A DNA stretch of 64,000 nt, from assembly GCA_026770025.1 (NCBI GenBank), contig JAMXDE010000013.1:992001-1056000 (forward strand), given 5' to 3'. Under the pieces are notes generated by a model, which was given only the letters and a program-made list of their open reading frames with translations, made no database searches and was not told the origin of the DNA. Both the position numbers and the translations under genes were made by a program. Shown here one piece after another: positions 7,454 through 36,928 of this stretch (position 1 is its first letter; every line of letters begins with the position of its first letter). The stretch is from Craspedostauros australis (lineage: Eukaryota; Bacillariophyta; Bacillariophyceae; Mastogloiales; Achnanthaceae).

Positions 7454-9148
7454 CTAGCGAACTGCATTGCTAGAATCTCTTTCATCGCTTGCTTTTGCCA
7501 AATCTTCTGACGCTCCGCTAGCCTCACATCTGCCATCCTCCACGATGACGGTAGTCGTAGCCTCCCCCAACGCTTTGCCACTCGTCTCCGGCAACAGTGC
7601 ACTCATGAAGCACGTGAACAGTCCTATGCCCATCATGAGCATACCGATACTGGACGGCGCGATACCTGGCGTGATCAAGTAAGGAGCTGCGAATCCGCCC
7701 ATGCGCCCGGCGGCATTGGCGGCGCTGTGTCCCGTCGTCCGGATGTCGGTCGGCAGCAGTTCCGACGTGGCGGCCCAGGTCGAGCAGCTGCCGGACATCA
7801 TGAAGAATCGCACGGCGAAGGCCAAGGCGACAGTTGTGGTCCTGGGTGCGGATCCGCTGAGGCATCCCAGCAGCAAGCAGGCCGCGCCGCCCAGGAAGTA
7901 CGCTGAGAACTGGGTTGCCACTAGTCCCAATTTGTCGATGACGAGCATGGAAGCAATTAGCCCGAACAATTCGGCAGACCCACTGATGAAGAGTGCGTTG
8001 TAGTCAAAGCCATATGAATCATCGGCGCTTCCATCAAGGGCAGATGCATTGCTGCTTTGGAGGACTTCTTGGATGTCCGAAAACTCCAAAGAGATCAGCA
8101 GGATGCCGCCAAAATAAAGGAAGGATGATCCGATCCACAACGCAAATAGCTGCATGGTGAACTTGAACCACTTGGGTGACAGCAGCTTCAAACAAGAGTC
8201 GTCATCAGTTGACTCTTCTTCGTCGTGCGTGATCACGACATCGTCGGGGAACATCGTCCTCCCATCCTTCCCGTTCTTGTCGGCCGCATGCCTCAACACG
8301 ACCAAGGCTTCTTCATGTCGGCCCTGGGTCAGAAGCCAGCGTGGTGATTCCGGGACGAGCCAAAACCCCAGGATCGCCGAAACCACACAGGGAACGGCGC
8401 AGCAGATGACCATCAATCTCCATGAGCCTCCATCAGCTTCACCATCTCCGAGGGTCCACATGGCGATCAGCGGTGTCAGCAACGATCCCAATGCCCAGAA
8501 TAGCTCGATGTACAACAGATTCATACCCCGATTCGTTGTTGGAATGAATTCTGCGAAGATGTCGAATGGGACGGTGTCTCCGCCGGTCCCGAATCCGACC
8601 ATGAAGCGGGCGACGTATAACCATCCAATACCGTTGACAAAGGCCGAGAGGATGCCAAAGGCGGCCACGATGATGGCGGTTGTCAAATACACCGGCCTGC
8701 GACCAATGCGATCTGCGAGGGTTCCGAGAACGACAGTTCCCAATATCGCACCGGCGAATACGACGGATACGACAGTGTCCATCTCTCGTTCGGTGAGATT
8801 CCACTCAGCGGTGAGCACGACGGTGAGGAATGACAGCAGCATGATCTCGATGGCATCCGATGCGAAACAGAGGCCTGCCGAGACCAAAACCTCGAACTGG
8901 AATCGTCCCATTCCGATCATGTCAATGGCGTCTTCAATATCGATCTCCAGGGCGTCGCTCTCAGCGCTGCTGCTGTTGCTGCTGGTCGAAGTGGCGCTGG
9001 TGAAGTCGCTGCTGCCGTATGCATCGTTCTTGAGGTAGTCATCGGAGCTGTCGCCGATGCCATCAATGCCATCATTGTCATCATTGGGAGTGGAGTCGTA
9101 GTGTGTTGGAAGTGCTCTGTACAAGGGCGTCGTTTCGTAGGACATCAT
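7454..9148 (-). CDS. MFS transporter 1 (SV2/SVOP-like)
   Basis: A 564-residue major facilitator with about 12 hydrophobic segments. Motif A is visible as LADRIGRRPVY at residues 144-154 between TM2 and TM3. PESPRW follows TM6 and LPET lies near the end, as in SV2/sugar-porter-like families. The first 75 residues are a Ser/Asp-rich cytosolic tail; an acidic DEEESTDDDS loop lies in the middle. The substrate is unknown. A second copy lies at 23999-25657 in the same orientation. The first two thirds of the two genes are nearly identical at DNA level while the last third differs, which suggests gene conversion. It has a divergent promoter with the plastid-targeted gene at 9787. Confidence 0.88.
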   Translation of the reverse strand: MMSYETTPLYRALPTHYDSTPNDDNDGIDGIGDSSDDYLKNDAYGSSDFTSATSTSSNSSSAESDALEIDIEDAIDMIGMGRFQFEVLVSAGLCFASDAIEIMLLSFLTVVLTAEWNLTEREMDTVVSVVFAGAILGTVVLGTLADRIGRRPVYLTTAIIVAAFGILSAFVNGIGWLYVARFMVGFGTGGDTVPFDIFAEFIPTTNRGMNLLYIELFWALGSLLTPLIAMWTLGDGEADGGSWRLMVICCAVPCVVSAILGFWLVPESPRWLLTQGRHEEALVVLRHAADKNGKDGRTMFPDDVVITHDEEESTDDDSCLKLLSPKWFKFTMQLFALWIGSSFLYFGGILLISLEFSDIQEVLQSSNASALDGSADDSYGFDYNALFISGSAELFGLIASMLVIDKLGLVATQFSAYFLGGAACLLLGCLSGSAPRTTTVALAFAVRFFMMSGSCSTWAATSELLPTDIRTTGHSAANAAGRMGGFAAPYLITPGIAPSSIGMLMMGIGLFTCFMSALLPETSGKALGEATTTVIVEDGRCEASGASEDLAKASDERDSSNAVR

Positions 9149-9786
9149 TGCTTTCAGCCACTTTGTTGTCGTCGTCGTTGTTGTTGTTGTCTCTTCGGTT
9201 GGATGGTTGTGTTGCGGAAGGTATGGTATTTGGAGTGTATGCGCAGGGAATGGAGTGTTGTGTTGGCATCGGAATTGGAGATCAAGTCGTACCGATTGCC
9301 ATCCTGTGACTCAAGAGATAGACATCAAGAACGAAAGTTCGCACGCGACCAACCCTGTCACTCTTCCAGAATCGACGTCAACACGAATTCTGATTCAAAA
9401 AGCGAACTTTTCCGTTCTCCAAGCATCGGTCTGGCCTTCGTTCCACCCCACACATCAACACATCAAAACGAACTCGGAGTTCCCACCAACCAGCCAACTC
9501 GACGCGTCACATCAACACATCAACACATCAACGCACACGCACGTCGGCGTGGACGATTCAAAGAAGACCTCGACGATCCATCAGTTTGCACACAAACCGT
9601 ATTTCTGTCCCAACACCTCAACTCTGTTCCACTTGCACCACCACCGACACAGTACCGTAGTCATACGAGTATACTAACAAGAAGCGAGAGAGAGAGTACA
9701 AGCAAACCGAACCAATCCAAATCAATCCAATCGCAACAGCATCAGCATCAGCATCAACAACTCAAGGCCAGATCCCATTCCCAACC
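9149..9786. promoter_or_regulatory. Divergent promoter region with short tandem repeats
   Basis: This lies between MFS transporter 1 (minus strand) and the plastid-targeted gene (plus strand). It holds a (GTT/GTC)n tract at about 9165-9192, two clusters of ACATCAACAC-type repeats at about 9448-9468 and 9508-9536, and CAGCAT repeats at about 9738-9757. Open frames here are low in complexity and judged non-coding. Confidence 0.4.
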
Positions 9787-11856: not shown

Positions 11857-12402
11857 GGCTGATTGCTTGTTGCAGTGCTTTGCTGTGCTTCAGGGCTTCA
11901 GGACTTTGCTGTGCAGTGCTTTTCAGTTTGTTTCTGTTGATCTTGGATGAACGGCCATGTGGATACTCCTACTCGTATCTTTGCACTGTACCATACGATG
12001 CCTGATGCCTGATGTTCGATGTTCGATGTATTGGAGAGAGAGAGAGAGAGAGAAGCAGAGAAAGAAGGAACTGGACGATCTAGCTGTATTCGTCTGTGGT
12101 GGACGTTGGCCAAGTGCTCTTCAGATGGGCATGATGTGCATTCCTCGAATCCGCTGTGCAGTTGGACACAGAACAAGTGTGGTGTTGTTGAGGATCTTTG
12201 GGTCGTGTTCAGTTCTGGTACATCGGGGTGAACGGTATATATAATTATATTCGATATATGAGACAGTCGAATACGAAATTTGTTTAATAATATTATATGT
12301 GCATTACCCGCATACCCCATGGTTGATTCGAACGATACCCTCGGTCGTCTCAGTCGAATGGGTCTTGTTACGATTTACGCTCGTGAACAAATCAAGAAAT
12401 AC
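11857..12402. other. Upstream region of UPRT with simple repeats
   Basis: It contains a GA-dinucleotide run at about 12033-12053, GATGTTCGATGTTCGATG direct repeats at about 12010-12028, and an AT-rich stretch at 12236-12300. The left border ends with ATAC at 12399-12402, half of the target duplication of element A. No gene is seen. Confidence 0.5.
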
Positions 12403-12450
12403 GAGCCCGATCAGTGAGTCGACCTGCACTTTGTCATGGGACTCAATAAC
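12403..12450 (+). repeat. Left terminal inverted repeat of element A
   Basis: It begins GAGCCCGATCAGTGAGTC and is identical, inverted, to 23624-23671. Confidence 0.95.
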
Positions 12451-13061
12451 TGTTCTCTAGTAGATCCAAACCAAGCACATAGTCGTAATCCTTATAATCT
12501 TCTTACAAATGATTAACCGATCGATTTTTGTTGTATATCCTTTTTTAAGTTTTATGTACAGTCAAAGATATGCTAAAGTCCTATGAGTCGACCCCATGAA
12601 ACTCCTGGTTGTTTTTCAGAAGGCTCCATGCTGTTCCAAAGTATTTATCGTCGGATGATCAGTCACGGACCTGCTCCGGAAGGAGTCGTTCGTTTGGTAC
12701 ACGTTAAATACACGTTAGCATCTGCGACATGATCTCACATTTTGCTCGTCACAAAACACATCACACAAAACACATCACACATCCAAAATCATCGCCATCC
12801 CCTCACAATTTCGCAAATCATCGCCACTTTTTCGCTCCATCTCACAACTTTCCTCGCCAATGCCATGCGCACTCGCTGTTGTGTTCCATGCTTGTGCTCG
12901 CCCTGGTAGTGTTCGTGTAGTAGTAGTAGTTGTAGTTGTTGTCGTTGTTCCTGAATGATCGACCTTCCTTTGGATGCTCTCCTTCCTCACTTCGTCTCAG
13001 ACCAGTGCAGTTCATCACAGACAACCAGCCAACAACTACTCTCTCCAGCATCAATCCAACC

Positions 13062-16000
13062 ATGCTCCCCTCTGCCGCTGCCAAGGCCCTCCCCAACGAT
13101 GCTAACCCCTCCCCCAGTAAGAAACCGCGTTCTGCTCGCCTTGCATCTGCTCCTCCCTTCGATTCGAAGGGGTTCCTGCAGCCTACTGCAGAGCAACTGT
13201 TGCCTAACAAGCCGTCTGCTACGTTGAGGAAGCCGAGCACCATCACGCAAGTGATCGATGTGAAGCCAATGCATGCAGCGGATGGCGGCCTCGTCCCGAA
13301 CAGTACGCATGCGCATGCTCGCGAGCTGCACGTGTTCGTACACATCCTCGATGACAATGGAGGTGTCTACGACAACTCCAACGTCAGGGTGCGCTCGGAA
13401 GGACGAGGTGTCGGCGATGGTACGTTGGTGAGCGTTATCGTGAACGCGCCACCCCCGCCTGCTGCAGCTGATGTTGCACCACCTGTCGAGCCTGCCCCAC
13501 CGGCGAGGCTCCCTCGTCGCTGCAATGCTGTTGTTGCTGGTGGCTATGCAGACACCTCCAATGACAGCGACACCACCTACAACGACAACGACAGGGGGAA
13601 CGAACGCGCGCCAGCAGGAACAGGAGAGGAGGTCAGTTTGGGTATGACCCGGAAGAGGGGGTAAATTGGAGGCGCCCTGCTGTGATTCGTGTGATGGAGG
13701 AGCTCACGGATCACTTCGATGTGAACGTGTTCAATTCCATGCCTCCCACAGGATTCGTGCTAGGTGGCAATTGTGACAGGCACACATGGTGGAATGCAAC
13801 ACGTGTGTGGGTCACTGTGGCAACTGCGCTCTGGGGTGTCTTGCTCCCTCAGGAGGCTCCGCCAACTCGCCAGATGCAACAGGTGGTGGCGTTTGTCCAT
13901 GCTCGCGTGGACCTCCCGCCTCCTACACTTGGTGCGAACCTGTACACCCTATGTGTGAGGGGAGAAAAGACACTTGCTAACGCTGCCAGAGCTGTGCTCG
14001 CTGCATCTACGTCATTCACTAACAGCTCCGCAATCCTGTCTCGTCACGTAAAGACTCTTCCGGAGGAACAACGCAATCGTGTCGAGCCCACGCGTGCCAC
14101 TATTACTAGGAGTCAGCTAACAACATTGCGACGTGGGTTTGATATGTTTAGCCGTGGCGAGGTCATCCCATCGCGAGTTCTCCAGTATCGCGTGCCTGCC
14201 TGTGACCTGTCTGGTGTGGTGTCCTTCCTCATGACAACAACAACATACAAGCCAGGGTTGAGTCACATGGTACAGTATGGTGGAGTTGAATTCGAGAATG
14301 TCCCGGTGTTCGATCGTGGTAGCACCTCCATCAAACAACTATTGGACATGTACTCATCTACGACTAACAATCCAGTGGGAAGGCCCGCGTTCACCCTCAT
14401 GACAAACCTCCTCACACGCAAAAGCAAGATCAAGACGGGCCTTTCTTCCTTCGAGAGTTACTTCTGGATGGCAACACAGAAGCTCAAACAGGTAATTTCG
14501 CGCCTAGTAGACCTGCTGAAGGCTAAGTATGATGCGGATGGGGAGGGAAAAAACGATGCCAATGACGAGAGCGACAACGACGACGAGCCGGATGACGTCA
14601 TTGCGCAGCATGTGCGCACTGCCGATTCTCTGTTGCATGCGCTCGAACTGCTTGTCGTGTTTGTCAAATGGGAATTCACCGCGTCGCACATGAAGCTTCG
14701 TTGTGACGACCCCATGCATTCGGCCGCGTTCGCTCTCACCACCGAAAAGGACAAGAAGAAGGCAACAACCACATCAACCAACCAACGGAAAGCCCACACC
14801 AACAAGCACAAGTGCAAGAAGAACACCACCATCACAAATGGCATTTCTCCCACCACCTCAAACAAACAGCCACGTAAAGTATGCAACAGATGTGGCGCAG
14901 CAATGCGATTTGTGGATGATCGTTTTGTCCCTTTTGTCACCATGCTTAAGGACAACGAACTCACAGAACACAAGGACGAGTTGCAGTCAATGCTTGTGGC
15001 AGCGCCGGGATTCGCTGATGAAATTGTTAACTACATGGCTCACAAAGTGCGTGCAAAGGTTCAATTCAGACAAATCGACATTTATAAATCCACGACCAAC
15101 AACAATGGCAAAAGAGCCTATGTGGTACTTGACCATAAGCAAAAAATTCTACCAACAGGCCAAGGCGAAGCCCAGCAAGAATATTGGGGGAAGAAGGGAA
15201 TGTCACTGCTTGGGGCGATGGTCATCACGTGTCACAATGATATTTTTACTTATCAGTTCATTGACATTGTGGTCGGTGGAAGACCGACACAAGACACTCT
15301 TCAAGTTGGTGGACTACTTGACATTGTGCAAAAAAAGGTCAAAGACATTCTCCCATCCGTGACTGAAATCATCCTACAGAGCGATAACGCTTGTTGCTTT
15401 GCCAGTCACGAGCACATCGCGCTCATCACATCGGTACTCAACAAGAACCTTGCGACACGAAAAGCAGCCAAAATCATCGTGTGGATCTACACAGAGGCCC
15501 AAACCGGTAAGAGCATGCTGGACACCCACTTCGCGTACATCACCCGTGTACTGCGAAAATACGTGGAAAGTGGCAAGGACATGAAGACCGCCCGCCAACT
15601 CTACAAAGCACTGAAAGCTGGTAGCATCACGGGGACAACAACGGTATTGGTCAATGCACGAAACCTCCAAGGCCACATCACGACATTGCCAGGCGCACCA
15701 AAAAGACGATTCCGAGCATCTGGACAACAGGTACGCCAGACTCATGAGGTGAAGTATGACGATGGCCAGGCGTGGCTGGTGGCTGCATCTGGCATCACGG
15801 AAGACATCGTGGTGAAGACCACCAAATGGGATGGCTGGATCATCAATGAGGTGGGTGTCATCGAGGACAGAACGTTCACGTCCGAGAAGCCGGCAATTAC
15901 GTCCGAATCATTCAGGAAGACGGACAAGACGCGAAAACTCGGTCGCACAGCGGCAGAGAGCAAGGGGCTGGTGTTCGGCAAAGCACTCGAAGACAGACAT

Positions 16001-16585
16001 GAACACCTTCCGTGTGATCACACCACGGCGCTACAAGACCAGACCGCGGAAACACAACACCCACCACTCGCTGTGAAAGGCTGGGCAAGCAAAACTGCGC
16101 GCAAACCAGCGGAACTACCAGACTACATCGCGGCGAAATTGAAGGACATCAGTGAAGCGTCCGCGAAGGACCCGAAAAACAGACCGTCCGAACACGAAGC
16201 ACATGAGCAATTGATGGACGACAAGAGGACCAAAACTGACTGGTACGTACAACTGCACGCAAACCCCATGCGCGTCAAAGCGTCGCTGTTTGCAGCGTAC
16301 AGTGCCAAACAACGCAAGGAAAAGAAAGAGGCTGCCCTCATCAAGACGGAAACCACCACCAACCCAACAGGCAGCACAACAGCAACAGCATCTGCAATTG
16401 TGGCGACCCACAATGTGCCAGCTGAAACACAGGAGGAACGAAGAGATGAGGAGTTGCAGAGAGAAGAAGAGGAGCTGGATCATCAGATGCGGTGTGATGC
16501 TGACACACTGAAGGCCAACACAGAAAGTGAGGCTGTGTTGGATGATGGGACGGAAAATTGTGATGGGCACGTACTGCCGCGATAA
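13062..16585 (+). CDS. Element A transposase (DDE/RNase H-like, superfamily unassigned)
   Basis: The main frame, 13637-16585, encodes about 980 residues. An upstream frame beginning at ATG 13062 (ACC ATG context) probably forms a first exon to 13427, joined through an intron 13428-13636 (GTGAGC donor, GGTCAG acceptor, phase 0). The acceptor is purine-rich, so this junction is tentative. Candidate catalytic residues are Asp in VVLDHKQKI (codon at 15131), Asp in LQSDNACCF (15383) and Glu in TEAQTGKSMLDTHF (15494), in the order of a DDE fold. An N-terminal region conserved in style (SNSSAIL, GFDMFSRGEVIPSR, RPAFTLMTNLLTRKS) precedes an acidic linker and a CNRCG zinc-like site near 14882. The C-terminus is charged and low in complexity. 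The DDE assignment rests on motif order, not alignment. Confidence 0.65.
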
Positions 16586-16682
16586 CACTAGTTGTGGAGT
16601 TTTGTGGGTGGCAGACCATGCTACTAAAACGAGTCTAGAGGCCATCCAAAAACCACCCAAATATCTGCTTGTCATGCTATAT

Positions 16683-16696
16683 CCATGGAGAATTTT
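16683..16696 (+). repeat. Left TIR of element B
   Basis: CCATGGAGAATTTT, inverted at 21925-21938; ATAT lies directly outside. Confidence 0.88.
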
Positions 16697-16717
16697 CGTC
16701 GCGATAATGGAAACAAT

Positions 16718-16778
16718 TTGCATCAGGACGCAAATTTTGGCTCTTTTCTGGAATGGTTGCATCAGGACGCAAATTTTG
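16718..16778 (+). repeat. Left subterminal repeats of element B
   Basis: There are two copies of TTGCATCAGGACGCAAATTT, starting at 16718 and 16757 and spaced 39 bp apart. They are likely transposase binding sites, by analogy with subterminal repeats of other DNA transposons. Confidence 0.8.
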
Positions 16779-17129
16779 ATTTTGTGTGGAGATTTAACAC
16801 GACGATAAAACAGTCCTGACTTCTTCGACTACTTGGCATATTTTCCAATCGCATTTCACAGCTCTCATCCGCCCATACGACATGCCTCTCCCAATACCTA
16901 GACCTTCCCCCTCCCTCCTCCCCTGCAATGGTGCTCTCTCTCAGCATCATTTCATTCCAGTCGCACCTCATCGACATCGTGCTCATGTGGGTTCCATGCT
17001 TGTGCTTGGCGGCAATGTCTACTATGTTATACATGCTCCTTCGCACAGACTGTTGCATCGTATCTCAGCAGCAGGTTCTTTGCATCCTTCCATCTCACCT
17101 ATCCATCTGTGTGTCGATGGTGGCTTGCT

Positions 17130-20100
17130 TCATAACTTTGCTCTTTGGCCGTGGCCCTCCTCACAATCCTTTGCTTTGCACGCGGCGCGTGTTCGTCCTC
17201 GACTTACCCATTCAGGAGAGGGTGCCGGCGATCGACGTCGTTTCTTCCCCTCCTTCCGGTGCGTTGTAGTTCTTCTTGGACTTCGTCTTGGAGGTGCTGG
17301 CACGGCGTTTTCTGTTGGTTGTGGCAGGGCTACTGCTTTTTCCTGTTGTGGATCAGCCCCCTCCTTCTCATTCTTCTTCAGATTGTTCTTCTTGTTCCAT
17401 TGCACATACGTCTCCTCCGTTTTTGGCACCCATGAACGATCTTTGCTGTGCAGCATCCGGTAGCATGTGTTGGACGCTACTGCTACTTCTTTGCTGATGA
17501 CAATGTTCCTCATCGTTGCCTTGTGATGGATCCCGCATTCCTTCTCCCATCTAACATGATTGGCTGTAGGTGCAACGCAGGCGAAGAGATGGCAGCGCAT
17601 GCATAACCAGCGAGTAAAAACTCCGCAAACCACACACGGTTGCCTCAGATTGAGGCAATGGATCGGTTCATGATTGCCTGACCGCAGCCTCTCATCGAGC
17701 GCATCTGCTGCTGCTGATGGGGTCTGTTCCACACTGGCAAGAAGTTTCCGCACGTCCTTGTGCTTCTTCACCTCTTGGTTGTTCGTGCGCCTTCCATCGG
17801 CCACAATGAGTGGATCGGCGGTACTTTTTGGCTTTGCTGGTGCTGCCAACGCCTTTCTCCGCTGTCTGCTCAATGCCTTGTCCATGGTCTTCCCCGTTTC
17901 CTCCATCACGATGTCACCCATCACATCCCTTAGGATCTCCAAGGACTGAGCGACCGATTGGCGCTTGTTCAGCATCTTCCTGTAGTGGTGAATGGTTGGT
18001 GTTCTGTCCAGATCTGTGTTGGTATGAATGTCGGGTGTGCAGCAGTAATGCATGAGTTTGTGGATGAACAACATCACAACTTCCAGAATTCGTATCACCG
18101 CTTTGCATTGGAATGTTGGGAAGGGAGAAAGCACTTCATGTTGTCGGATCATTCGCGATATAACATCGGATCCCCCTTTGAAGGCGTTCCATCGCGATAT
18201 TACCGCAGGGACGAACGTATGCACTCTTGGAACTGGGATAGGCAGTTGTTGGCATGCCTTCCAGATCAACAACTGATGGAACACATCATCCTTCGTCAGT
18301 GCTGCGATGTGGTGACCACCCGAAGACTGTTTTCCGCCCGATCTCTTCGAAAGCAGATACTTCTCGAGCATGGCTCCGGACGATGTTGAAATTGGATCGG
18401 TATCAATGTTGGTGTACGCGAAATCCAATGTCAAGCGATACAAATCGTCGAGCACCATTCCATAAGACAGCATCAATGAAGCTGAGAACCTTGTGGACAT
18501 GGATCTTAGAATGTTGCCAGTTGAATCACCTACCGACAGAACAAGTGCACAAATGGTGGTGAAAGCAGCATTGAAGGAACAGAAACGTTAGTGATCACAT
18601 CATGTTGGGCCTGCTGTTTTGCAATGCACGCTGTCAGCGACACATACGTGCCAGCCTCAGGAAACAACTTACCAACAACAATCATCGCGCCTGGCACTCC
18701 AAAGACAAATGAATGATGCAGCAGTTGCACCATTTCCCACTCCTGCCGAAATTGCGCGCGCCACACATTGTCCTGCACGTTTCGGAACACATGAGCATCC
18801 TCGTCAATCCTGGTGGTCCTGCTTGCTTCGCGAAGATGTGTCTTCTCCAACTCCTCTGTGTTGGTTGTCGCTCGAGTCTTCATCTCGACGACGAAGACTT
18901 CGTCGGTGTTGTTGTTGTCAGGGTCTCCTACAATCGCCAGAAAATCTACGGATGCTCGAGCGTAGGGAACACCTTTCTTTGCAACGAGACCAGCACGGTA
19001 CCCTGCTTTGATACGATTGCCAGAGCTTCCCACTCCGATACACTCCATGGCCTTCTTCATCAGCGGGATCTCACATGTATGGCCCAACTTTGCATTCTTC
19101 GCGGCCTTCCCCTTCAATCCTTTCATGAACCATGTTTGTAGCATTGTTGTTGTAAGCCTCTGCTTCAATGATGCCATCCATGGCGTATCATTATCTTCCT
19201 TGTCAGCAGATGACATCTCCAGCTCCCTTGCCATATCGTTGAGGGTCAATGCCACCATTCTATCAAGCAGAGTGGTCCTTGTGTCCTGGGACAAGTTGGC
19301 CTTTGGTAGCCGTTCCTTGACTTGCTTCTTGAGGGACGCATCGGCAAGAGCAACGAAGCGCCGTCGTACCTTGTCATGCTGTGCCAAAATTCGATGCAGC
19401 ATGGCATAGTTTGTTCTTCGACTGCGACGGACTTTGCTCATGTAGAAGAGCTGCATAAGGGCAGCTAGATTGGAGTCTGAAATGATGTTGGCGTTGTTGT
19501 CGCCAGTTTCGAGCCGAGCTTCCAACTCAGTCGAATCGTGGCTTGGATTCGTCAGCTGTTGGTATGTGGCAAGTGCCTTCAGCCTTGTTGTTTCGGTGCT
19601 CAAGTCCTTGTCGTATGTCTGGGCCTTTCCAGCAACATCAAACCCCATGTATGTGCCGACATGTTCCCAAGCAGCTTTGTTGAATATGGCAGAATTGTCG
19701 GAGTTCGACCATTCGCCACTGTCAAGCACGGCCTTGATCATGGTATACGTGGAGGTGCTTGTGAAAGAAAACCTCCTCTGCATGAACCATAGATGGTCAC
19801 CCTGCTCGCATGTGAGCCCCTCGACCTGGAGATCCCAAATCTGTGCCGCCCAGGCTGCAGCTGCATTGTCGATGGCTGTTTTGTTGTGCTGGTCCGTTTC
19901 GTTGTTGCCAAGCATCCTTGCTTCCCTCACAGCAGGCGATAGGGTAGAATCGGATACGCAGTGATGGAAGAAGTGCGGGTACAACTTGGACTGACGATTG
20001 TTGCCGTCTTTCCTGTTGACCATGTTGGTGTACATTCGTTGGTCGCGAGGATTTTCTAGATTGAGGTCCCACTCGAATGAAGCAGCGTTGGTGCCAACAA

Positions 20101-21517
20101 CCAACACATTGTTCAGATTGTGGCGGTATGAATAGCAAGCGAATGGTTTGTTGCCCATGCCATTTGTTACCGCTATCTGAAGCTTGCGCGGGCCGTGCTT
20201 TCCGACGTCCATCTGTGGGTTTCCTGGTGCGGTCCAGCCGCCGAAGGTAAATGGCAGGTGAGCGTGACGCTTGTGCGTTCCTTCAAGGTCTGCGTCCTTG
20301 CTGATGAGGTCGCGCGAATCCAGTTCGGTGTTGTAGCCACAGTCCGCCATGAGCGTGACATTGCGGAGGCTTCCATTGGTCTGTGCCATTTGGGAGAGGA
20401 GGGCCATGCTGTCTTCATGAGGCTCGTCACGAGATGCAGCAAGGCCAACAACAAGACCTGATGCACTCTGCACAAGGGTATTCAATCGTATTCTGACAAA
20501 TAGAAGAAGTGAACAAGGAGAGAGGGAGGAAGGAGAATAGAAGGAGATGGTGTCAGAAAAGTGGAACAACCATTGCCAACACAAGCGCGCGAGATAGACT
20601 TACCCATCGCGGTTTGCATGAGCATGTCGCATGAGAAGCAAACAACTTCTGTCACCGTGACTCTGGCAATGGACCTTGTCATCGTCAAGAGTGACAATGC
20701 GATGACCATTACCATGATTCAGACAGATCTTTGGAAGGCATAGGTTGAATGCCTTTTCCAGCTCTGCCCACAGGAATCGGTGACCTCCTGATGATGGAGC
20801 ATCCCCGTTGTCCCTGATTTTGCTCCAGGTGGCAATGTACGATTCTTTGGATGGAAATGCATTCAGGTTGTTGACGACATCAGAGTCGTAGAGGCGCTTG
20901 GTGGTGCACCCCAAAGACATCTGAGCCAAGAATGCATACAGAAAGCTTGCATAGCTGCTGTAGGGGATGTCCAGGCCCCCTGGTCCAAACGCATCAACGA
21001 AGATGGAAGACGAAGGTCCCAGCACGTAGCGCATGAGGTCATGTGGGGTGGGCACAAAGGGGCCCATTCCTGGGGGAGGCTTTGGAAACAGTCGGAGCAC
21101 ACATTGACGAGTGCTCTGGACTTCCATTCGAAGCTGAGCCAAGGCCAAACTATGGGCGCCGCTGACGGTGACAGTGGTTCCATGAGTGGCTGGACAAAGT
21201 ACATGCCACTCCATGGAACCCCTGCTGTTGTCCTTTGGCGGAGGAAGGATGACCCGATGGGTGCAACCATGCCTTGTAGAGGGTTGAACACCAAACGCAC
21301 CGACAAGCGTAGGGGGTGGTGGATCCACAACACCACCTTCGTCATCGCTGCGGACGGAGGCAACATGAACATGGTTGTTGGGATCGTGACCATGGTCACT
21401 GATACTGTCATGGAGAAGGCGTGGGGCATCGATGTTGTTGGTGGCATGAGCATCAGCAAACTCGTTGTCGATAGCCTGGATCATGTCAAGGGTGTTGTTG
21501 TTGTTCACAGCTGCCAT
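17130..21517 (-). CDS. Element B transposase-nuclease fusion (three exons, 1377 aa)
   Basis: Three frames join without a break. Exon 1 is 21517-20604, exon 2 is 20492-18673 and exon 3 is 18529-17130. Intron 1 (20603-20493) has GTAAGT and TGTCAG, phase 2. Intron 2 (18672-18530) has GTAAGT, a CTAAC branch-like site and GGTAG, phase 1. Total length is 4134 bp, a multiple of three. The DDE-like core has TLDDDKVH (near 20685) across the first intron from LMADCGYN (near 20345), followed by GTHKR and PFTFGG. Then comes CEQGDHLWFMQRRFSFTST, like the QxTxxWxxxRxxxxTxS start of YqaJ-type nucleases. Further on SVDFLAIV (near 18945) and VVEMKTR (near 18880) give the D and ExK of a PD-(D/E)XK active site. 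Exon 3 has CVVCG, CMRCH and CGIHH, a piggyBac-like cysteine-rich end. The splice model is strong; domain functions are inferred. Confidence 0.8.
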
Positions 21518-21839
21518 GGTTGAGAGTTGGTTGCAGAGAAGGCAAGAGCAGGCGCAGATAATCTGATGTCGAAATGAAGTTGGTGGGAATGTCCTGAGTG
21601 GAAGGAGGACCGATGGAGACTGGGAAGAGGTGGAGGAAGGAGCATCAGTGCGGACAGGTGCGTTGTGCAACAACAATGTTGTAGTTGTTGTCGAAAGGAG
21701 GAGAAAAGGAGATGACGCGAGAGACAGCATGAAATTACAACAGCAACAGATCAGAACACACAAGGGAAAAAACGGGAAGTAATCGAACCAGTCGATGCGG
21801 AAATCGCACCGTCTTAAATCTCCACGTTAAGTTTATTTT

Positions 21840-21922
21840 TGCATCCTGACGCAACAAATTGGGAATCTCCGGGTGACTTGCGTCAGGATGCAAAAAATGG
21901 CCCTTTTTGCACCCTGACGCAA
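21840..21922 (+). repeat. Right subterminal repeats of element B
   Basis: There are three units: TTGCATCCTGACGCAA near 21840, TTGCGTCAGGATGCAA at 21879 and TTGCACCCTGACGCAA near 21907. They alternate in orientation and match the left units. Confidence 0.8.
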
Positions 21923-21924
21923 AA

Positions 21925-21938
21925 AAAATTCTCCATGG
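21925..21938 (-). repeat. Right TIR of element B
   Basis: AAAATTCTCCATGG, the inverse of 16683-16696, followed by ATAT. Confidence 0.88.
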
Positions 21939-21942
21939 ATAT

Positions 21943-23623
21943 CTCAACAACACATCGCTTAAAATTAAAACTAAGCATTGAATTCGTACACATGACTATC
22001 GGTTTATCAGAATATTGAAGTTAATGAGTATAGAAAATATTTTGGAAGTCATGTTGGTTTGCTGTGTGTTGTGTGGTAGATTCGAAAAAAAATGTTGATG
22101 CCACAATGTTGCCGTCCAATGAGCACACATGATCATCATCATCATCGTTGTATTTCAGCAAAATGTGCATACCATTCGCTCTGCATACCCCCCAGCTACC
22201 CACTCCATGAAGGCTGGCCACAGACATTGGCTCTGCATGCAGCAATGCAGCCACACACTGAAACAGAGCGATTGCCAAAAAACGTTTTCAATCCGGATGC
22301 GGTATGGATATGGATCCATACCTCATCCATATGATCCTTTCAGCCCCTCCAAGCACTCCTCGTGCATTCCCACACTCCATGGTGACACGCGGATGCATCC
22401 AGAATGGGCTGGGAGTGCCTGGCCGATGTGATACACCTCCATGTGATGATGTTGTGGTGCATTTTTTGCTCCAACCGAACATGACCATTCTGCAGATATG
22501 GTTGGCTGCAGCCTCTTCCAGACAACTTCAGCAGAGCATACTTCACGACGTGCATCTTCAATTGATGTCGCACTCATCTTGTATGGGTGGCTTGGCGATT
22601 GAGGGGCGTCTTCCCATCGCCCCTCACAGCCAAAGCCACGCGACCGATGCCGCGCGAGCCCCAACCAAAACTCCTCAGAACCACCTTTTCCTCCGCGCGG
22701 ACACCTTCCCGGTGCTCCGCGAGCCTCAAACTTCGAGGGTGCCTTCTTCTTGCCCCTCTTGAGGCGTCTTGACCATCCGTAGGCGCTGTTTTGACCTGTG
22801 TGTGGCACACACAGGTCAAAACCAACGAGCCGATTTGGAGCCAAATCGTGATCGTATTTCTGGGGCCTACGACGGCCCCAAATCAACCCCCCTTCCCGCC
22901 TCCGTTCGTCCACCCACCAAACGCTGCGTGGAGATTACGGCGATGTTCTTGGATCTTGAATTGGCCGGATGGTTGTTGCGGCGCCAAGCATACCATTGGA
23001 CGGCCATTGTGGTATTTTTTTGGTGTGGCTCCACTTCCATGTTGGTGTGTCAAGTTTGCCACTCTCAACCGGCCTCACATGTTGGGGGATGTGGAGATTT
23101 ACCTGCAATTGTAGTGACTGTCCGAGAGGAGCACAACACAAAACACTCGCGGAGTACCAACCCCACTCAACCACTTCGCCACGACGAAACAGACCTGATG
23201 ATGTTGCGCATCGTGATATCATTGGTGTTTCATGACGAAGTATCCAATTTCGTGACGTCGATGACGGATTGGACAAGCACATGGTGTAAGTAACGTAAAC
23301 GCGGGTTCACCGCTTCCCCCAAGATTCTACAACTAGTGCTATCGTGGATGGACTGTTGGATGGTCTCATCCGAACACCTGAAAAAGAGACTAAACAATTC
23401 AAAATCAGAACACAGTTGCTGAAACAAAGAACAGCAAAGGGTTAAATTGGATCGATGTAGTCGGAAGAAAAAGGCTGAGTCCCTAAAGCAGTCTAAAAAT
23501 GCGCACATTGACGGGTCCATAAAACTTAAAATAGGATCTAACTTAAAAATCGATCGGTTAATTATTTATATGGAGATTAAGAGAATTACGAATATGTGCT
23601 TTGTTTGGATATCGGAGACAAAT
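21943..23623. other. Right arm of element A, no clear gene
   Basis: 1.7 kb of element A sequence lies between the element B insertion and the right TIR. Short frames exist on both strands, but none has recognisable motifs or credible splice structure. The part 22600-22880 is a chain of inverted repeats, listed separately. Confidence 0.5.
22600..22880. repeat. Chain of five hairpin-forming inverted repeats
   Basis: In order: TGAGGGGCG (22600) with its inverse at 22618; GCCTCAA (22723) with its inverse at 22759; a near-perfect 17-bp-arm palindrome GTTTTGACCTGTGTGTG with one spacer base (22788-22822); CGATTTGG/CCAAATCG (22831-22848); and TGGGGCC/GGCCCCA (22861-22880). Confidence 0.85.
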
Positions 23624-23671
23624 GTTATTGAGTCCCATGACAAAGTGCAGGTCGACTCACTGATCGGGCTC
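23624..23671 (-). repeat. Right terminal inverted repeat of element A
   Basis: The exact inverse of 12403-12450, followed by the ATAC duplication at 23672-23675. Confidence 0.95.
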
Positions 23672-23675
23672 ATAC

Positions 23676-23998: not shown

Positions 23999-25657
23999 TC
24001 ACAGATCACCTTTGCCGCCGCTTCCTTTGGTCACGTCGTCTGATTTCCCACCAGCCTTAATCCTGCCATCCTTCACCATGCGATCATCTCCATGCGTGGC
24101 TTCGCCCAATGCTCTGCCACTAGTCTCCGGCAGCAGTGCACACACGAAGCATGTGAACACGCTCATGCCCATCATGACCATGCCGATGCTGGATGGCGCC
24201 ATACCCGGCGTGACGAAGTACGGAACGACGGATGCACCCACGCGACCAGCGGCATTGGCGGCGCTAGTCCCTGTCGCTCGGATATCCGTCGGTAGCAGCT
24301 CCGGTGTGAACACCCAGGTCGAGCAGTTCCCGGCCAGCATGAAGAATCTCACGAGGAAGGCCAGCGTCACCATCCCAGCCTTCGACATGGATTCGCTCAT
24401 GACGGCCAACAGCACGCACGCAATGCTGCCCAGGATGAAAGCTGAGGACTGGGTTGCCACCCTTCCCAATTTGTCGATGGTGGACATGGCAGCGAATACC
24501 CCGAAGACTTCAGCGGATCCGCTGATGAAGATGGCGTTGTAGTCAAAGCCATATGAATCGTCAGCGCTGCCATCAAGGGCAGACGCATTGCCGCTTTGAA
24601 GGGTCTCGCGAGCGTTCGAGAATTCCATGGCGACCAACAGGATACCACCATAGTAAAGGAAGGACGATCCGATCCACAAGGCAAAGAGCTGCATGGTGAA
24701 CTTGAACCACTTGGGTGACAGCAGCTTCAAACAAGAGTCGTCATCAGTTGACTCTTCTTCGTCGTGCGTGATCACGACATCGTCGGGGAACATCATCCTC
24801 CCATCCTTCCCGTTCTTGTCGGCCGCATGCCTCAACACGACCAAGGCTTCTTCATGTCGGCCCTGGGTCAGAAGCCAGCGCGGTGATTCCGGCACGAACC
24901 AATATCCCAGAATCATCGATACCACACAGGGAACGGCACAGCAGATGACCATCAATCTCCATGAGCCTCCATCAGCTTCACTATCTCCGAGGGTCCACAT
25001 GGCGATCAGCGGTGTCAGCAAGGATCCCAATGCCCAGAATAGCTCAATGTACAACAGATTCATACCCCGATTCGTTGTTGGGATGAATTCTGCGAAGATA
25101 TCGAATGGCACCGTTCCTCCGCCTGTCCCGAAGCCGACCATGAAGCGAGCGACGTAGAACCATCCAATATCGTTGACGAAAGCCGAGAGGACGCCAAAGG
25201 CGGACACGATGACGGCAGTCACCAAGCACACCGGCCTCCGACCAATGCGATCTGCCAGGGTTCCGAGAACGAAAGTCCCCATCATCGCACCGGCGAATAC
25301 GACGGATACGACAGTGTCCATCTCTCGTTCGGTGAGATTCCACTCAGCGGTGAGCACGACGGTGAGGAATGACAGCAGCATGATCTCGATGGCATCCGAT
25401 GCGAAACAGAGGCCTGCCGAGACCAAAACCTCGAACTGGAATCGTCCCATTCCGATCATGCCGATGGCGTCATCAATATCGATCTCCATGACATCGCTCT
25501 CAGCTCTGCTGCTCATCGCAGTGATGCTGGTGATTCCGTTGCTGCGGTATGTGTCGTTCTTGACATACTTGCCGGAGCTTCCACCGATGCCATCATTGGG
25601 AGTGGAGTCATAGTGTGTTGGAAGTGCCTTGTACAATGGAGTCGTTTCGGAGGACAT
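23999..25657 (-). CDS. MFS transporter 2 (paralogue of transporter 1)
   Basis: A 552-residue major facilitator with the same plan as the gene at 7454: acidic N-terminal tail, LADRIGRRPV motif A, PESPRW after TM6, the same DEEESTDDDS loop, then six more membrane segments ending in LPETSGRALGEA. Over 25302-25463 its DNA is identical to 8762-8923 as far as I could compare, and 24693-24895 differs from the matching part of copy 1 at only about three bases. The last third (TM8-12 and tail) is clearly diverged. The tail is Gly/Lys-rich (GGKSDDVTKGSGGK) where copy 1 has an Asp/Ser-rich one. It is therefore a functional-looking duplicate, with conversion over the 5' part. Substrate unknown. Confidence 0.88.
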   Translation of the reverse strand: MSSETTPLYKALPTHYDSTPNDGIGGSSGKYVKNDTYRSNGITSITAMSSRAESDVMEIDIDDAIGMIGMGRFQFEVLVSAGLCFASDAIEIMLLSFLTVVLTAEWNLTEREMDTVVSVVFAGAMMGTFVLGTLADRIGRRPVCLVTAVIVSAFGVLSAFVNDIGWFYVARFMVGFGTGGGTVPFDIFAEFIPTTNRGMNLLYIELFWALGSLLTPLIAMWTLGDSEADGGSWRLMVICCAVPCVVSMILGYWFVPESPRWLLTQGRHEEALVVLRHAADKNGKDGRMMFPDDVVITHDEEESTDDDSCLKLLSPKWFKFTMQLFALWIGSSFLYYGGILLVAMEFSNARETLQSGNASALDGSADDSYGFDYNAIFISGSAEVFGVFAAMSTIDKLGRVATQSSAFILGSIACVLLAVMSESMSKAGMVTLAFLVRFFMLAGNCSTWVFTPELLPTDIRATGTSAANAAGRVGASVVPYFVTPGMAPSSIGMVMMGMSVFTCFVCALLPETSGRALGEATHGDDRMVKDGRIKAGGKSDDVTKGSGGKGDL

Positions 25658-26315
25658 CGTTGTTTCCTGCTCTCTTTGCTGTTGCGGTTGCTGTTGCGGT
25701 TGCTGTTGCGGTTGCTGTTGGTCTTCCTATCTTTGCTGACACCTTTCTGGTTGTGTGGCTATGATGTCTGGTGTACGAGCCATAATGTCTGCCAGGAATG
25801 GTGGAGATGGTGTCAGTAGTCTCGTGCCATTGTTGTACTCGCACGTTGTTCTTGTGTGAATGCCGGTCTTTCTCATCTGCCGGTTGGTTGGAGGGAGAAC
25901 CACAGAAAGCGAAAAGTGCGTGGTCTGACAGCGGAATCCTCTCAGTTCCACGAACGCGTCATCGCGAAGTTTGTGAGCGGATTGATGTGTTGCTCGAAGA
26001 CTCATGCACAAGGTCTGACCTTCGCTCGGATCCACGATTGAACACAAAATGTTGGTGGCGATTGGATCAGCAGCGTTCGAATGGATACCTTCGGTGTCGT
26101 TGTTGTGACCAGCATCCAACGATGCCAGAACACACACTTACTCCACTCTGCCCATGACCTGTGATTGCTCTCCGATCTGCTCTGAGCTGTGCTGCTCTGC
26201 ACCCATTCATAAACCTGCGACACTCGTGGAGACAGGTGCTCACAGAGTATTGTAGAATACATTGAGAGTACAATTGCAATTGCAAGTGCAAGGGCTAGTG
26301 CAAGTATTTGTCGAC
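25658..26315. promoter_or_regulatory. Divergent promoter region of MFS 2 and TPT-like gene
   Basis: A tandem 12-bp repeat of the GCTGTTGCGGTT type occupies about 25678-25718. A TGCAAT/GTGCAAG-rich stretch sits at about 26271-26300, just before the TPT-like start. No defined regulatory motif could be assigned. Confidence 0.4.
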
Positions 26316-30302: not shown

Positions 30303-31007
30303 TCTGGTTGTGCTCGGACGCTGCAGGACGGCTCGTATTCAACAGACTCTCAGTTGACCACAGGGGAAGGAGAACAGGAGGTGGCTGATCCATGGTCCTT
30401 GGCTGATGTTGATGTCGGTGGGAGCTGTGCTCTGCGTTCTCTGTGGTGGGCGTGTTGGATGTCTCGCCGCACATTCTTCCACTTCCGTCTGCAAAGTGTG
30501 GTCATCGATGCGATTTGGGTTGATGTTCTTGAAGTGAAATGACCGAGTCGTGGATAGAATTATGGTTGGTCCAGTGAATCAACCGTGTGCGGTTCTCTCG
30601 GAAGCCGATTGGTCCGACTCCAAGACGTTTCATTTCGTCTCTCGATCACCACCTCTCGCGCCGATCTGCCTCATCGGTTGATGTGGGTGTTGGTCCACGA
30701 GGATCATTGCTTGTGAAAGGAGCATCATCACATTCCTGTGTAGATAGTATGCTACCATACATCATCAATGGACGAATCATTCGCAATCGTCGTCTGAGTT
30801 GCATCCCCAACGACCAAGAATGACGTAGAGGTAGTGAATTACCTTTGGATCAGCGTTTGCGCCGACGGAGTGTCGAGCTGCGCCACGAAGGGCAAGCGGG
30901 TCCTTGTCTCTGCGAGCACCATCGCTACCGAACACAAGACCATCAACGTTGTCGACACCGTCAGATTATCCACAACCAACCAAGCAACCAACCAACAGTC
31001 AGACAGG
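30303..31007. promoter_or_regulatory. Divergent promoter region of SGNH-like gene and first GT61 gene
   Basis: About 700 bp separate two divergent starts. A frame runs upstream of the GT61 ATG without an in-frame ATG and is treated as 5' UTR. CAACCAACCAAGCAACC-type low-complexity sequence precedes the GT61 start. No defined motif was found. Confidence 0.4.
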
Positions 31008-32414
31008 ATGGCACCAGCCAGCGGCAGGGCCTCCATTATGCAGGGCATGAACGCCTACCGCACGCTCATGATCATCGCGATGATGCTGGCCTTGATGAAT
31101 TGGAGATTGCCTCTGACTCTGCGGACGTCCTCCCAACCCGTCGATGATGCGATGGGCGGTATCAACCCTCCCACTCTTCTCGCAGATGGAACAACACGTT
31201 GGTGGAATGGCAATATCACCAACTTCCCGTCGTTCATGTTGCAGTGGCCAACCGATCGATCGCCGCCAAATAATTGCAACATTCTGAACACCTCGATACC
31301 GCATAGCTTCCACATCACCAGCTATCCAAGCTTCAGCGAGAAGGAAGACATATTCACGAGCTACTACGGCGATCTCAACGCGAGTTGGGGTCCTGATGAT
31401 GCAACGGCAACGCGTGGAGGTATTCGTTCGGTCGAATCTGCTGACACCAACATGTTGATTGGAGGCGACGGTTCGACCTTTGACCAAATCAAGACGGTCG
31501 CATGCACCTTGACAGAATACTACCACGTCAACGATTTCCCACACCAAATGGAGGTCATCTACCGATGCTGGTCGTTGTGGCGTCATTTTCCAAATGCGGA
31601 GCACGTCCTCCTGATCCGACCCAAGATGTACTTTAAGATCGTAAAATTCTCCGATTTTAGCAAAGGCATGATGAAGGTATTGCAGGAAAGCAACGTCTCC
31701 ATTGTTGCCAAAAGAACGCACAACTTCAAGCTTGGGCACCAATTCGATAAACCCGAGCTTCTCATCGTCTTTGCTCGTCAGACCTGGAATTTCAAAGCGA
31801 TTCGTCACGACGACATGGCCAACCTGAGGCGCAGCACGTTGACGGCGCTGGGACTGGATCGATACATCGACCAGTCCTGCGGCGTTACCAATCACCAGAT
31901 GGAAGCAGGTGACAAGGGAAGCAACCGGATGGAGCTGCCGCGCATCGTGATATTCAATCGCAAGAAACGCCGGGAGCTGTTTGGCGCGCATAACATATCC
32001 ATTCTGCTGCAGGATGAATTGAATTTGCGCTACAGACCACCCGTTTTGTTCTTCGAAGCTGCGTCCTTCGAAAAGCAGGTGGAAGCATTCAGCAACATCG
32101 ACATCCTGCTTACCCCGCATGGCGCGCAGCTGACATCGCTTCCGTTCCTGCCACGCTGCAGTTCCGTGATTGAAGTATTTCCTTGCGGGTACGGCGTCGT
32201 GGAGTATTTTGGGACCTTGGCCGCAACATCCGGCGTCAATCATTCTTACATCTATTTGGGGACGGACATGGTCGCTGAGACGAAGCGCATGGGATCATTG
32301 GGCACGCAAGGTGTTTCGTGGAACGCGTCCTTGTGTGCACCGGCCTATCGCATGGTGGAGGCTGTCCGGATGCAGGTCGAACAGTGGAATCGGTGTTGCG
32401 GATTCCAGCCTTGA
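31008..32414 (+). CDS. GT61-family glycosyltransferase 1
   Basis: A 468-residue type II membrane protein starting at the ATG at 31008; the frame upstream lacks an ATG. The anchor is a Met/Leu-rich segment at about residues 20-37. Conserved luminal blocks shared by the whole array follow: ITNFPSFMLQWPTDRSPP, then DFPHQMEVIYRCWSLWRHFP, then RIVIFNRKKRREL. The GT61 (DUF563) hallmark DILLTPHGAQLTSLPF is next, then SSVIEVFP, YIYLGTDM, and a Cys-containing end with EQWNRCCGF. Known GT61 enzymes add xylose, arabinose or GlcNAc to glycans in the Golgi; donor and acceptor here are unknown. Two N-glycosylation sites follow the anchor. It is the first of six same-strand paralogues. Confidence 0.87.
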   Translation: MAPASGRASIMQGMNAYRTLMIIAMMLALMNWRLPLTLRTSSQPVDDAMGGINPPTLLADGTTRWWNGNITNFPSFMLQWPTDRSPPNNCNILNTSIPHSFHITSYPSFSEKEDIFTSYYGDLNASWGPDDATATRGGIRSVESADTNMLIGGDGSTFDQIKTVACTLTEYYHVNDFPHQMEVIYRCWSLWRHFPNAEHVLLIRPKMYFKIVKFSDFSKGMMKVLQESNVSIVAKRTHNFKLGHQFDKPELLIVFARQTWNFKAIRHDDMANLRRSTLTALGLDRYIDQSCGVTNHQMEAGDKGSNRMELPRIVIFNRKKRRELFGAHNISILLQDELNLRYRPPVLFFEAASFEKQVEAFSNIDILLTPHGAQLTSLPFLPRCSSVIEVFPCGYGVVEYFGTLAATSGVNHSYIYLGTDMVAETKRMGSLGTQGVSWNASLCAPAYRMVEAVRMQVEQWNRCCGFQP

Positions 32415-33102
32415 GGATGGGTGAGAGATGTGGTTTTGTCGTCGAAGCGGCAATGGATTGGGGAGTGAAGCGTGGAAGATTGACTGAGAGCTACTTGGAA
32501 CACGGCTGTGTCGCACCAGCCTCTTGAGATACTACACCGTGGAGAGTGCCATTGCTCGTATTGTACATGTTATACCTCACACTGCTTCCGTCACGACAAA
32601 GCAAACTGTGAGAATTCCAGAGTCTCGATTCCTTCTGTCAATACGGGAATGCGGGTCACGAGTTCCGATCCAGGTAACAATCTCACAAAATTCAACGCCT
32701 GTTTTGTTTTCGTTTCGTTTGTCTCCCGCCGAGACACCCAACAATGACATCACGAACGCTGTGGCGCTGGCGCACAACAATCATCGTTGCAATACTCCAA
32801 CTGTACTTCGCAGCGGTAGAGAGCTTTGATTGCCGCTAACATTTTGGAAAGAATACTCCGGGAGCAAACGAAGGCGCTCTACCGAATTCCGTAGGTCTCT
32901 GACACCCCCACCAGCGCTTCTGTTCACAAAACATAGGCGCTTGCTCCACCTACGCAACACTTCCATAATCAAAACCTTGCAATCACACTCGACCGACCGA
33001 CGATCAGCAACCCGCTGAGAACGCACTGGCGGAGACTAACAAGGCACAATACGCCCACTGCATTGAGTGACAGAGGACGGTACCAACAGATCTTGAGACA
33101 GA
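32415..33102. other. Intergenic region between GT61 genes 1 and 2
   Basis: 688 bp with no gene, relic or repeat recognised. It presumably holds the 3' UTR of gene 1 and the promoter of gene 2. Confidence 0.4.
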
Positions 33103-34512
33103 ATGTCATCGTCCGAGGCTACGCCCGTTGCCCCGCGCTGCTGGAGAAGCCACCATCCCTTCTTGTTCACCGTTGTCGCAACCCTATGGTTCATGAATTT
33201 GCGTCGTGACTTGACTGTTTTGCACACAGTTCCCATCAACGCCAATGATGCGGTGGAGCCGGACACCAGCGATGCAACTCTGCAAATCCATGACTTACCG
33301 ATACGGAATCGCAACATTATGAATTTCCCACACTTCATGGTGCAACGGCAAGTGCACGACGATGGAGTATCACAGTGCGACATCCAAAATGCTACCATGC
33401 TGCACACCTTCAACTTCACGAATCACCCCAGATCCTACCCAAAGGAAGAAATGTTCGAAAGCTACTTCGGCGATCTCGCACAAGCATGGGATGAAAACGA
33501 TAGCGTGGCAATGCGCGTGGACACGGACGTAGACGGTGACATTGCCGGGGAGTTGCTGGGACCTCCTCGTGCACCAGCCAACCCAATCCACACAGTCGTG
33601 TGCACCTTCACAGACTACCGATACATGCACCATTTCCCACACCAGATGGAGACCATCTACAGATGCTGGTCCTTGTGGAGGCACTTTCCGAAGGCGAGGC
33701 ACGTCTTCCTCATCCGACCGGCAAAGTACGACACGTTTGTGTCTGGATCTGCGTTCAGCAAAGGCATGATGAACATTCTGAAGCAAAACAACGTCTCAGT
33801 CCTTGCGGAAAGGTTTGAAGAGTATCAACAGCATTCAGACACGCCGGACAAGCAGGGGCTGATCGTTGCCGTCGCCAAGAAAGACTGGGAGTTCAAGACA
33901 GCACGCGCCGACGACATGGCCAGTTTGCGGCGCAGTACGTTGCGTGTGCTCGGGTTGGACCGATACCACGACCGGGCCTGTGGGATCGAACCCCCGACGA
34001 ATGGAACGCATGAGAGCAAACGAATGGAGGTCCCACGTATCGCGATCATCAATCGCAGAGGCAGGAGAACCATGCTGGGCGCGCAAAATGTATCCAGTAT
34101 TCTGCAGGCTGAATTGAGCTTGCCGTACACACCGCCCGTGTTCTACCTCGAATCGCTGTCGTTCAAACAGCAGGTGGTGGCATTCCACAACGTCGACATA
34201 TTGCTGACACCGCATGGCGCACAGCTGACGTCAATTCCTTTCCTTCCACGGTGCAGCTCGGTGATTGAAGTATTCCCGTACGGCTATGGACTCGTGGACT
34301 ACTTCGGAGCGCTGGCCGCGATATCTGGCGTCCATCACTCCTACATCTACCTCGGTGCCAATATGGTGTCGGAAACTCGGAGCGCGTCATCTCCGGATGA
34401 GCAAAAGGTTGCGCGTAGAGCTTCTGTGTGTGCACCAGCCCATCGCATGGTGGAAGCCGTCCACACACAGATCCAACAATGGAATCGGTGTTGCGAATCG
34501 CAGCATCGCTGA
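33103..34512 (+). CDS. GT61-family glycosyltransferase 2
   Basis: A 469-residue protein with start ATG at 33103. A hydrophobic FLFTVVATLWFMNL anchor lies at about residues 21-34. It has the array blocks NIMNFPHFMVQRQV, HFPHQMETIYRCWSLWRHFP, RIAIINRRGRR, the GT61 motif DILLTPHGAQLTSIPF, SSVIEVFPYGYG and a C-terminal QQWNRCCES. It is the most diverged intact member near its N-terminus: the WPTDP block is replaced by RQVHDD. Its 3' flank shares a GGAATCCAGT stretch with the region after gene 3, consistent with tandem duplication of units including UTRs. Activity is likely intact, as all blocks are present. Confidence 0.87.
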   Translation: MSSSEATPVAPRCWRSHHPFLFTVVATLWFMNLRRDLTVLHTVPINANDAVEPDTSDATLQIHDLPIRNRNIMNFPHFMVQRQVHDDGVSQCDIQNATMLHTFNFTNHPRSYPKEEMFESYFGDLAQAWDENDSVAMRVDTDVDGDIAGELLGPPRAPANPIHTVVCTFTDYRYMHHFPHQMETIYRCWSLWRHFPKARHVFLIRPAKYDTFVSGSAFSKGMMNILKQNNVSVLAERFEEYQQHSDTPDKQGLIVAVAKKDWEFKTARADDMASLRRSTLRVLGLDRYHDRACGIEPPTNGTHESKRMEVPRIAIINRRGRRTMLGAQNVSSILQAELSLPYTPPVFYLESLSFKQQVVAFHNVDILLTPHGAQLTSIPFLPRCSSVIEVFPYGYGLVDYFGALAAISGVHHSYIYLGANMVSETRSASSPDEQKVARRASVCAPAHRMVEAVHTQIQQWNRCCESQHR

Positions 34513-34954
34513 GTCGGTCGAGAAGCGAGGAAGGATCTGCCAACTAGGGAATCCAGTAATGATGGTTGTTTTCGCTCTGAAGTTCGAACCATTCTTCCAC
34601 CCGTTTCCACCAAACGATTATTTCTGGCCTGTTTCGGAGATTCGTCTGCAAAATTCCCAATGTTGGTGGCTTTTTGTGTGTTGCGACGAGAAAATAGGCA
34701 AAACACATTGGAGAATAAGCCATTTTATGAAAACAGGTGAATAATGTCACCCGATTGGGATGTACCATGACACGCACTTCTTCCCGTCATTTGCTGCATC
34801 GCGTGTCGGCCAGTACACCCCACAGAGTGTGAGTAAAAAGGAGTGCCAGGAACCTCGCAGCGCCAACGGCGGTGCGTTGGGTGCGAAACGAAGACAAAGC
34901 AACGTGGATGCAATCATCCTCGCACCATGCATGCATCGTTTCCACCCACCGTAT

Positions 34955-34995
<41 letters not shown>

Positions 34996-36898: not shown

Positions 36899-36928
36899 CA
36901 AGTGCCTCAAAGAGCCGGACCCCAAAAA

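Follow-up and report, generated by a model that had tools for sequence, protein, structure and literature searches.

A transposon of Craspedostauros australis encoding a putative piggyBac-like transposase with a probably embedded lambda-exonuclease/YqaJ-type nuclease

The 64,000-nucleotide stretch of Craspedostauros australis DNA analysed here (the window) contains a DNA transposon, element B, whose single gene would encode a piggyBac-like transposase (D278, D346, D1024 and a cysteine-rich DNA-binding tail) carrying a lambda-exonuclease/YqaJ-type nuclease within it. The nuclease would lie at the end of the region matching the beta-stranded insertion subdomain described for piggyBac (PMC11707139), just behind the insertion-domain position, and element B itself would be an autonomous cut-and-paste transposon from a large family in this genome. 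To this reading as a whole, which is built from sequence comparisons, a probability of about one half is assigned.

Element B interrupts a second repeat, element A. Four distinct copies of element A without element B (L010, L011, L012 and L015) read GCTATATCTC across the junction, and the same junction in the window reads GCTATAT-CCATGG...CCATGG-ATATCTC, with ATAT doubled by element B; L018 and L019 coincide in position with L011 and L012 and were not counted as distinct. Because other copies of element A lack element B and carry a single ATAT, element B is a real insertion with a doubled target, which bears out an earlier note's proposal, made from the sequence of this region, of a cut-and-paste element. 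A reading of A and B as one element was rejected, given the copies of A without B. The limits of element B were set against the empty copies of the host repeat and against copies L002 and L003 of element B; its exact boundary is a convention, because a shorter duplication with a longer element would give identical letters. The insertion and its ends comprise the following features.

12400-23674, plus strand: element A, the host element that carries B (terminal inverted repeat arms 12400-12559 and 23515-23674, 160 nt, 85% complementary; ORF 13565-16585)
16679-16682, no strand: left ATAT target-site copy (a single ATAT at empty sites in four distinct host-repeat copies)
16683-21938, minus strand: element B, whole DNA transposon (5256 bp, ends CCATGGAGAA...TTCTCCATGG)
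16683-16801, no strand: left terminal inverted repeat region (pairs with the right end through I5, 25 nt, 88%, and I2, 46 nt, 76%)
16718-16733, no strand: subterminal palindrome TTGCATCAGGACGCAA
16757-16772, no strand: subterminal palindrome TTGCATCAGGACGCAA
21810-21938, no strand: right terminal inverted repeat region (I5 and I2 with the left end)
21839-21854, no strand: subterminal palindrome TTGCATCCTGACGCAA
21878-21893, no strand: subterminal palindrome TTGCGTCAGGATGCAA
21907-21922, no strand: subterminal palindrome TTGCACCCTGACGCAA, one mismatch
21939-21942, no strand: right ATAT target-site copy (from comparison with empty host copies and copies L002 and L003)

ATAT stands outside CCAYGG at all element B ends inspected, including those of copies L002 and L003. 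In the 74.8-Mb assembly searched (90 contigs), the 28-bp left end of element B occurs 26 times, against 0 for a reversed-pattern control; ATAT lies outside 24 of these copies and, with one mismatch, outside another, and next to one copy no ATAT turned up even when three mismatches were allowed. The right flank of L002 provides a second, partial empty site, matching window positions 41939-42246 at 94% with one ATAT included; the left flank of that copy had no match. The five palindromes in the inverted ends share the consensus TTGCRTC-NN-GAYGCAA, a pattern derived from the repeats themselves, which is found eight times in the window within two mismatches (0.53 expected). The other three lie at 41222-41797 (TTGCGTCCGGACGCAA), near the repeat targeted by copy L002, and are perhaps a decayed relative of element B.

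Several neighbouring features of the window were recorded. The 1006-aa ORF of element A had no Pfam match, and the genome holds at least 35 near-full matches to the left part of this element and at least 40 to the right part. Element C (37610-40151) is a canonical piggyBac (PF13843, 5.4e-15) in two overlapping frames; PF13843 has 160 matches in the genome. Two closely similar genes (7454-9310 and 23999-25726), which we take to encode major-facilitator-like transporters, flank the transposon cluster, and positions 30798-48001 hold several similar ORFs arranged in tandem, which end in ...HGAQLTSIPFLPRCSSVIEVFPYGYG and presumably form a glycosyltransferase family.

The gene of element B runs on the minus strand from an ATG at 21517 to a stop ending at 17130, the span given in the earlier note. 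Removal of two predicted introns joins three exons into one protein, as had also been claimed, with a length at these splice sites of 1368 rather than 1377 residues.

20604-21517, minus strand: exon 1, with the N-terminal part and D278 as the putative first catalytic aspartate (TLDDDKV, codons about 20692-20669)
20466-20603, minus strand: intron 1, 138 nt, GTAAGT...AG
18673-20465, minus strand: exon 2, with D346 (MADCGY), strands up to aa 450, then the nuclease
18673-19810, minus strand: lambda-exonuclease/YqaJ-type domain, about aa 525-903 (R535, E770, D812, E832, K834, Q885)
18530-18672, minus strand: intron 2, 143 nt, GTAAGT...AG; same junction in L026, L027 and L028
17130-18529, minus strand: exon 3, with the third-aspartate motif PAVISRWNAFKGGSD (D1024, about 18167-18165) and the cysteine-rich tail (17636-17448)

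All the sequence blocks previously named are present in this protein: TLDDDKVH at aa 276, LMADCGYN at 343, LWFMQRRFSFTST at 530, SVDFLAIV at 810, VVEMKTR at 830 and the cysteine-rich tail at 1201-1263. TLDDD in exon 1 and the exon 2 aspartate D346 are invariant in alignment A1. The second-aspartate block of the window copy (20353-20330) reads DCGY, against DRGY or DRGF in the relatives listed. The intron 1 donor occupies the same position in six of the eleven relatives examined, the other five having no match to anchor the start or the end. We infer that the gene is spliced; adjacent ORFs as separate genes were rejected, since splice junctions and exon order are conserved.

The nuclease region contains, conserved and in order, the R, E, D, ExK and Q that mark the family: R535, E770, D812, E832, K834 and Q885 are invariant in alignment A3 (five sequences) and in nine spliced members. 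It was compared with a profile of ten phage exonucleases and the YqaJ domain from the same genome, which includes lambda Exo and proteins annotated as YqaJ- or RecE-like. Motif I (LTCEQGDHLWFMQRRFSFTS) scored 37.1, where 60 column shuffles gave at most 20.8, and the second half (G..E / D / ExK / Q), aligned separately and in order, scored 29.5, a value reached by none of 100 shuffles; against a piggyBac profile the nuclease region scored 12.3. Single nuclease sequences fell below the curated cut-offs of Pfam, PHROGs and NCBIfam, with sub-threshold matches that agree with the nuclease reading (L057 with PF01771, 0.12; phrog_434, RecE-like, 0.02; TIGR03033, 0.022). PF09588 was not found above its cut-off in the exons of the window or of eight relatives, PDB sequence profiles gave chance matches only, and no part of the B protein matched Pfam, NCBIfam or PDB-sequence profiles above noise. 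The only PF09588 match in the genome (L059, G000:C25:34761-35165, 1.6e-17) is a canonical YqaJ outside the transposon family. The invariant residues and profile scores support a PD-(D/E)XK nuclease of the lambda-exonuclease/YqaJ/RecE type, in agreement with the YqaJ-like assignment made earlier.

The transposase half appears weakly piggyBac-like. A profile was built from T. ni piggyBac, piggyBat and element C of the window. On it, a composite without the nuclease scored 32.6 and the cysteine-rich tail alone 26.1, values that none of 199 shuffles reached in either case; the best score of the tail was against element C (28.3), and its piggyBac likeness, suggested in the earlier note, is upheld. 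Compared separately, two regions gave borderline scores, 20.5 for D1-D2 (equalled or exceeded in 6 of 199 shuffles) and 18.2 for D3 (in 9 of 199), the same queries scoring 18.4 against phage exonucleases and 17.2-17.7 against a reversed profile as wrong targets; with T. ni piggyBac as the sole reference, D3 scored 24.2. D278, D346 and D1024 align with the piggyBac catalytic residues, which we take to be D268, D346 and D447, with the D1-D2 and D3 parts near control scores when taken alone. PF13843 (DDE_Tnp_1_7) was not found at an E of 10 in the window exons, the exons of eight relatives or five nuclease-less composites, and in place of the TTAA target-site duplication of the piggyBac superfamily element B has ATAT.

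In the window protein the third aspartate lies within P-x6-N-x2-KGG-x-D (KGGSD, aa 1024), and D1024 is invariant in alignment A2. The pattern P-x6-N-x2-[KM][GK]G-x-D, which was drawn up on the piggyBac and piggyBat sequences and tested post hoc, occurs once in each of nine members out of nine, between nuclease and tail; shuffling the window protein 3000 times gave 1 match. Because this D3-type motif comes after the nuclease, the nuclease probably lies between the second and third aspartates, embedded in the catalytic core between D346 and D1024 rather than appended to it. Of the DDE core proposed earlier, the aspartates do align, weakly, but its placement wholly before the nuclease is the less likely one, as the best third-aspartate motif follows the nuclease.

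Relatives of B in the genome range from 94% down to about 28% identity; none was found in the viral or prokaryote contigs searched. At 47 loci an exon 2 match reaches the nuclease end, with exon 1 upstream in 43, exon 3 directly downstream in 45 and both in 41, counts that cover all exon 2 matches, 70 of 72 exon 1 matches and 53 of 109 exon 3 matches. At 11 further loci (L043-L053) the exon 2 match extends only to residue 507. To judge from these matches, they represent a deletion derivative that lacks the D...ExK part of the nuclease, which lies beyond that residue, as well as the greater part of exon 3. Both enzyme parts are under purifying selection in two close pairs: dN/dS between the window copy and L026 is 0.29 in exon 1, 0.15 in the transposase part of exon 2, 0.14 in the nuclease and 0.09 in exon 3, and the corresponding values for L030 and L036 are 0.19, 0.31, 0.14 and 0.32 (a third pair, the window and L028, is saturated). 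A right-end partner was found for seven of ten left ends tried, giving three full-length copies (5256, 5252 and 5182 bp) and four shortened copies that have kept both ends (3808, 2848, 2705 and 2704 bp). Among the matches listed, a family exon comes within 9 kb of only 5 of the 26 left ends, so the majority of copies appear to lack the gene and to have been moved in trans.

In the mechanism proposed for element B, the cysteine-rich tail would bind the subterminal palindromes, a palindrome near the transposon end being the target described for piggyBac tail domains (PMC11707139), and the DDD core would cut and join at the palindromic ATAT, as piggyBac does at TTAA. The transposase would bring the nuclease to the break, where it would resect the 5' strands of the flanking donor ends; repair of the resected ends would then be steered towards a homologous template, often copying the element back in, with a gain in copies. 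Resection of donor-site ends is probably the role of the nuclease. The shortened 2.7-3.8 kb copies with both ends fit interrupted gap repair, which is a fit and not proof. It is a more tentative and somewhat doubtful extension that B represents a new piggyBac-related lineage, perhaps a superfamily of its own, in which a lambda-type exonuclease was grafted between catalytic residues 2 and 3 and one polypeptide would excise the element and then decide how the donor break heals, turning cut-and-paste into net copy gain.

Other arrangements of the same fusion have to be weighed. The triad could be D278, D346 and D446, with the nuclease a C-terminal addition as in KolobokE and exon 3 a separate DNA-binding region. 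D446 could be the third acid because it lies just before the nuclease and is acidic in all listed sequence forms (D in 10 of 11 distinct forms, E in one); its distance from D346, 100 residues, is like that between D346 and D447 of piggyBac. However, the piggyBac D3 motif, with exact spacing, is found in exon 3, where the aspartate is invariant in A2, L058 has E in place of D446, and the CC...GG ends of B differ from the 5'-RR...YY-3' given for Kolobok in PMC9587614. A simply appended nuclease was accordingly set aside as the main reading, given the D3 motif after the nuclease, and is kept as an unlikely rival.

The function of the nuclease may also be read differently. It might take the place of the hairpin step in excision by cutting the second strand, the 5' one, at the ends of the transposon, as does the restriction-endonuclease-like TnsA of Tn7-like elements, which cuts the 5' strand and is described as naturally fused to TnsB in some CRISPR-associated transposons (PMC10761935). 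Such a role is improbable: the nuclease resembles the lambda-exonuclease branch down to the arginine of motif I and the glutamine, enzymes of this kind act on existing ends, and a palindromic target of 4 bp is what hairpin excision would suit. An activity outside transposition, as cargo or in defence, for instance the destruction of competing linear or foreign DNA, would draw on a domain family common in phages; it is more improbable still, because nuclease and transposase are kept in one protein at 41 of 47 loci and related nucleases are reported from two other DNA-transposon superfamilies (PMC4482050, PMC9587614).

Under the preferred reading, a piggyBac-like transposase with an embedded nuclease, element B would share with the piggyBac superfamily (T. 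ni piggyBac and piggyBat) the three aspartates and N-x2-KGG-x-D at the third; the two also have in common the cysteine-rich tail, a palindromic 4-bp target, CC...GG ends and subterminal palindromes. It differs in the embedded nuclease, in ATAT instead of TTAA, in a likeness too weak for Pfam and in the distance from second to third aspartate, about 678 residues against about 101. TnsA-TnsB fusions of Tn7-like elements are bacterial and use another nuclease branch. TnsA sits at the end of the transposase in these fusions and is not embedded. Like B, they join a restriction-endonuclease-like nuclease to a DDE transposase (PMC10761935). Dada of Laccaria and Ectocarpus, as described in PMC3706591, also carries an exonuclease within its transposase, behind the second catalytic D, but this is a DEDDy 3'-5' exonuclease in another superfamily with small-RNA gene targets.

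DDE transposases paired with such a nuclease are already known, although the earlier note was aware of no established superfamily defined in this way: ISL2EU has the pair, according to PMC9587614, with the YqaJ exonuclease encoded in a second ORF (PMC4482050, PMC9179366). Although both are DDE elements coding for a YqaJ-type exonuclease, ISL2EU is described with the target A|AT|T, ends that usually begin GG and a PIF/Harbinger-like transposase (PMC4482050); membership was rejected, since ends and target differ and, in B, exon 2 carries the nuclease and D346 in one spliced frame. The KolobokE lineage likewise holds a DDE transposase and a lambda-exonuclease-like nuclease within one element, and membership was rejected on its 5'-RR...YY-3' ends and TTAA target (PMC9587614), against CC...GG and ATAT in B. 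In the literature searched, mostly by title, no account was found of a lambda/YqaJ-type nuclease in a piggyBac-like protein, and a passage in PMC4482050 describes the functions of the extra proteins of PHIS elements as unknown. With nuclease and transposase in one protein, the role of the extra nuclease becomes testable by point mutants, and the arrangement could alter the repair of broken donor DNA. Besides ISL2EU and KolobokE, element B seems to add a third DDE lineage with a lambda-type nuclease, and some Dada transposases contain an exonuclease of another kind. Acquisition on several occasions suggests an advantage for cut-and-paste elements in controlling the DNA ends that they leave behind.
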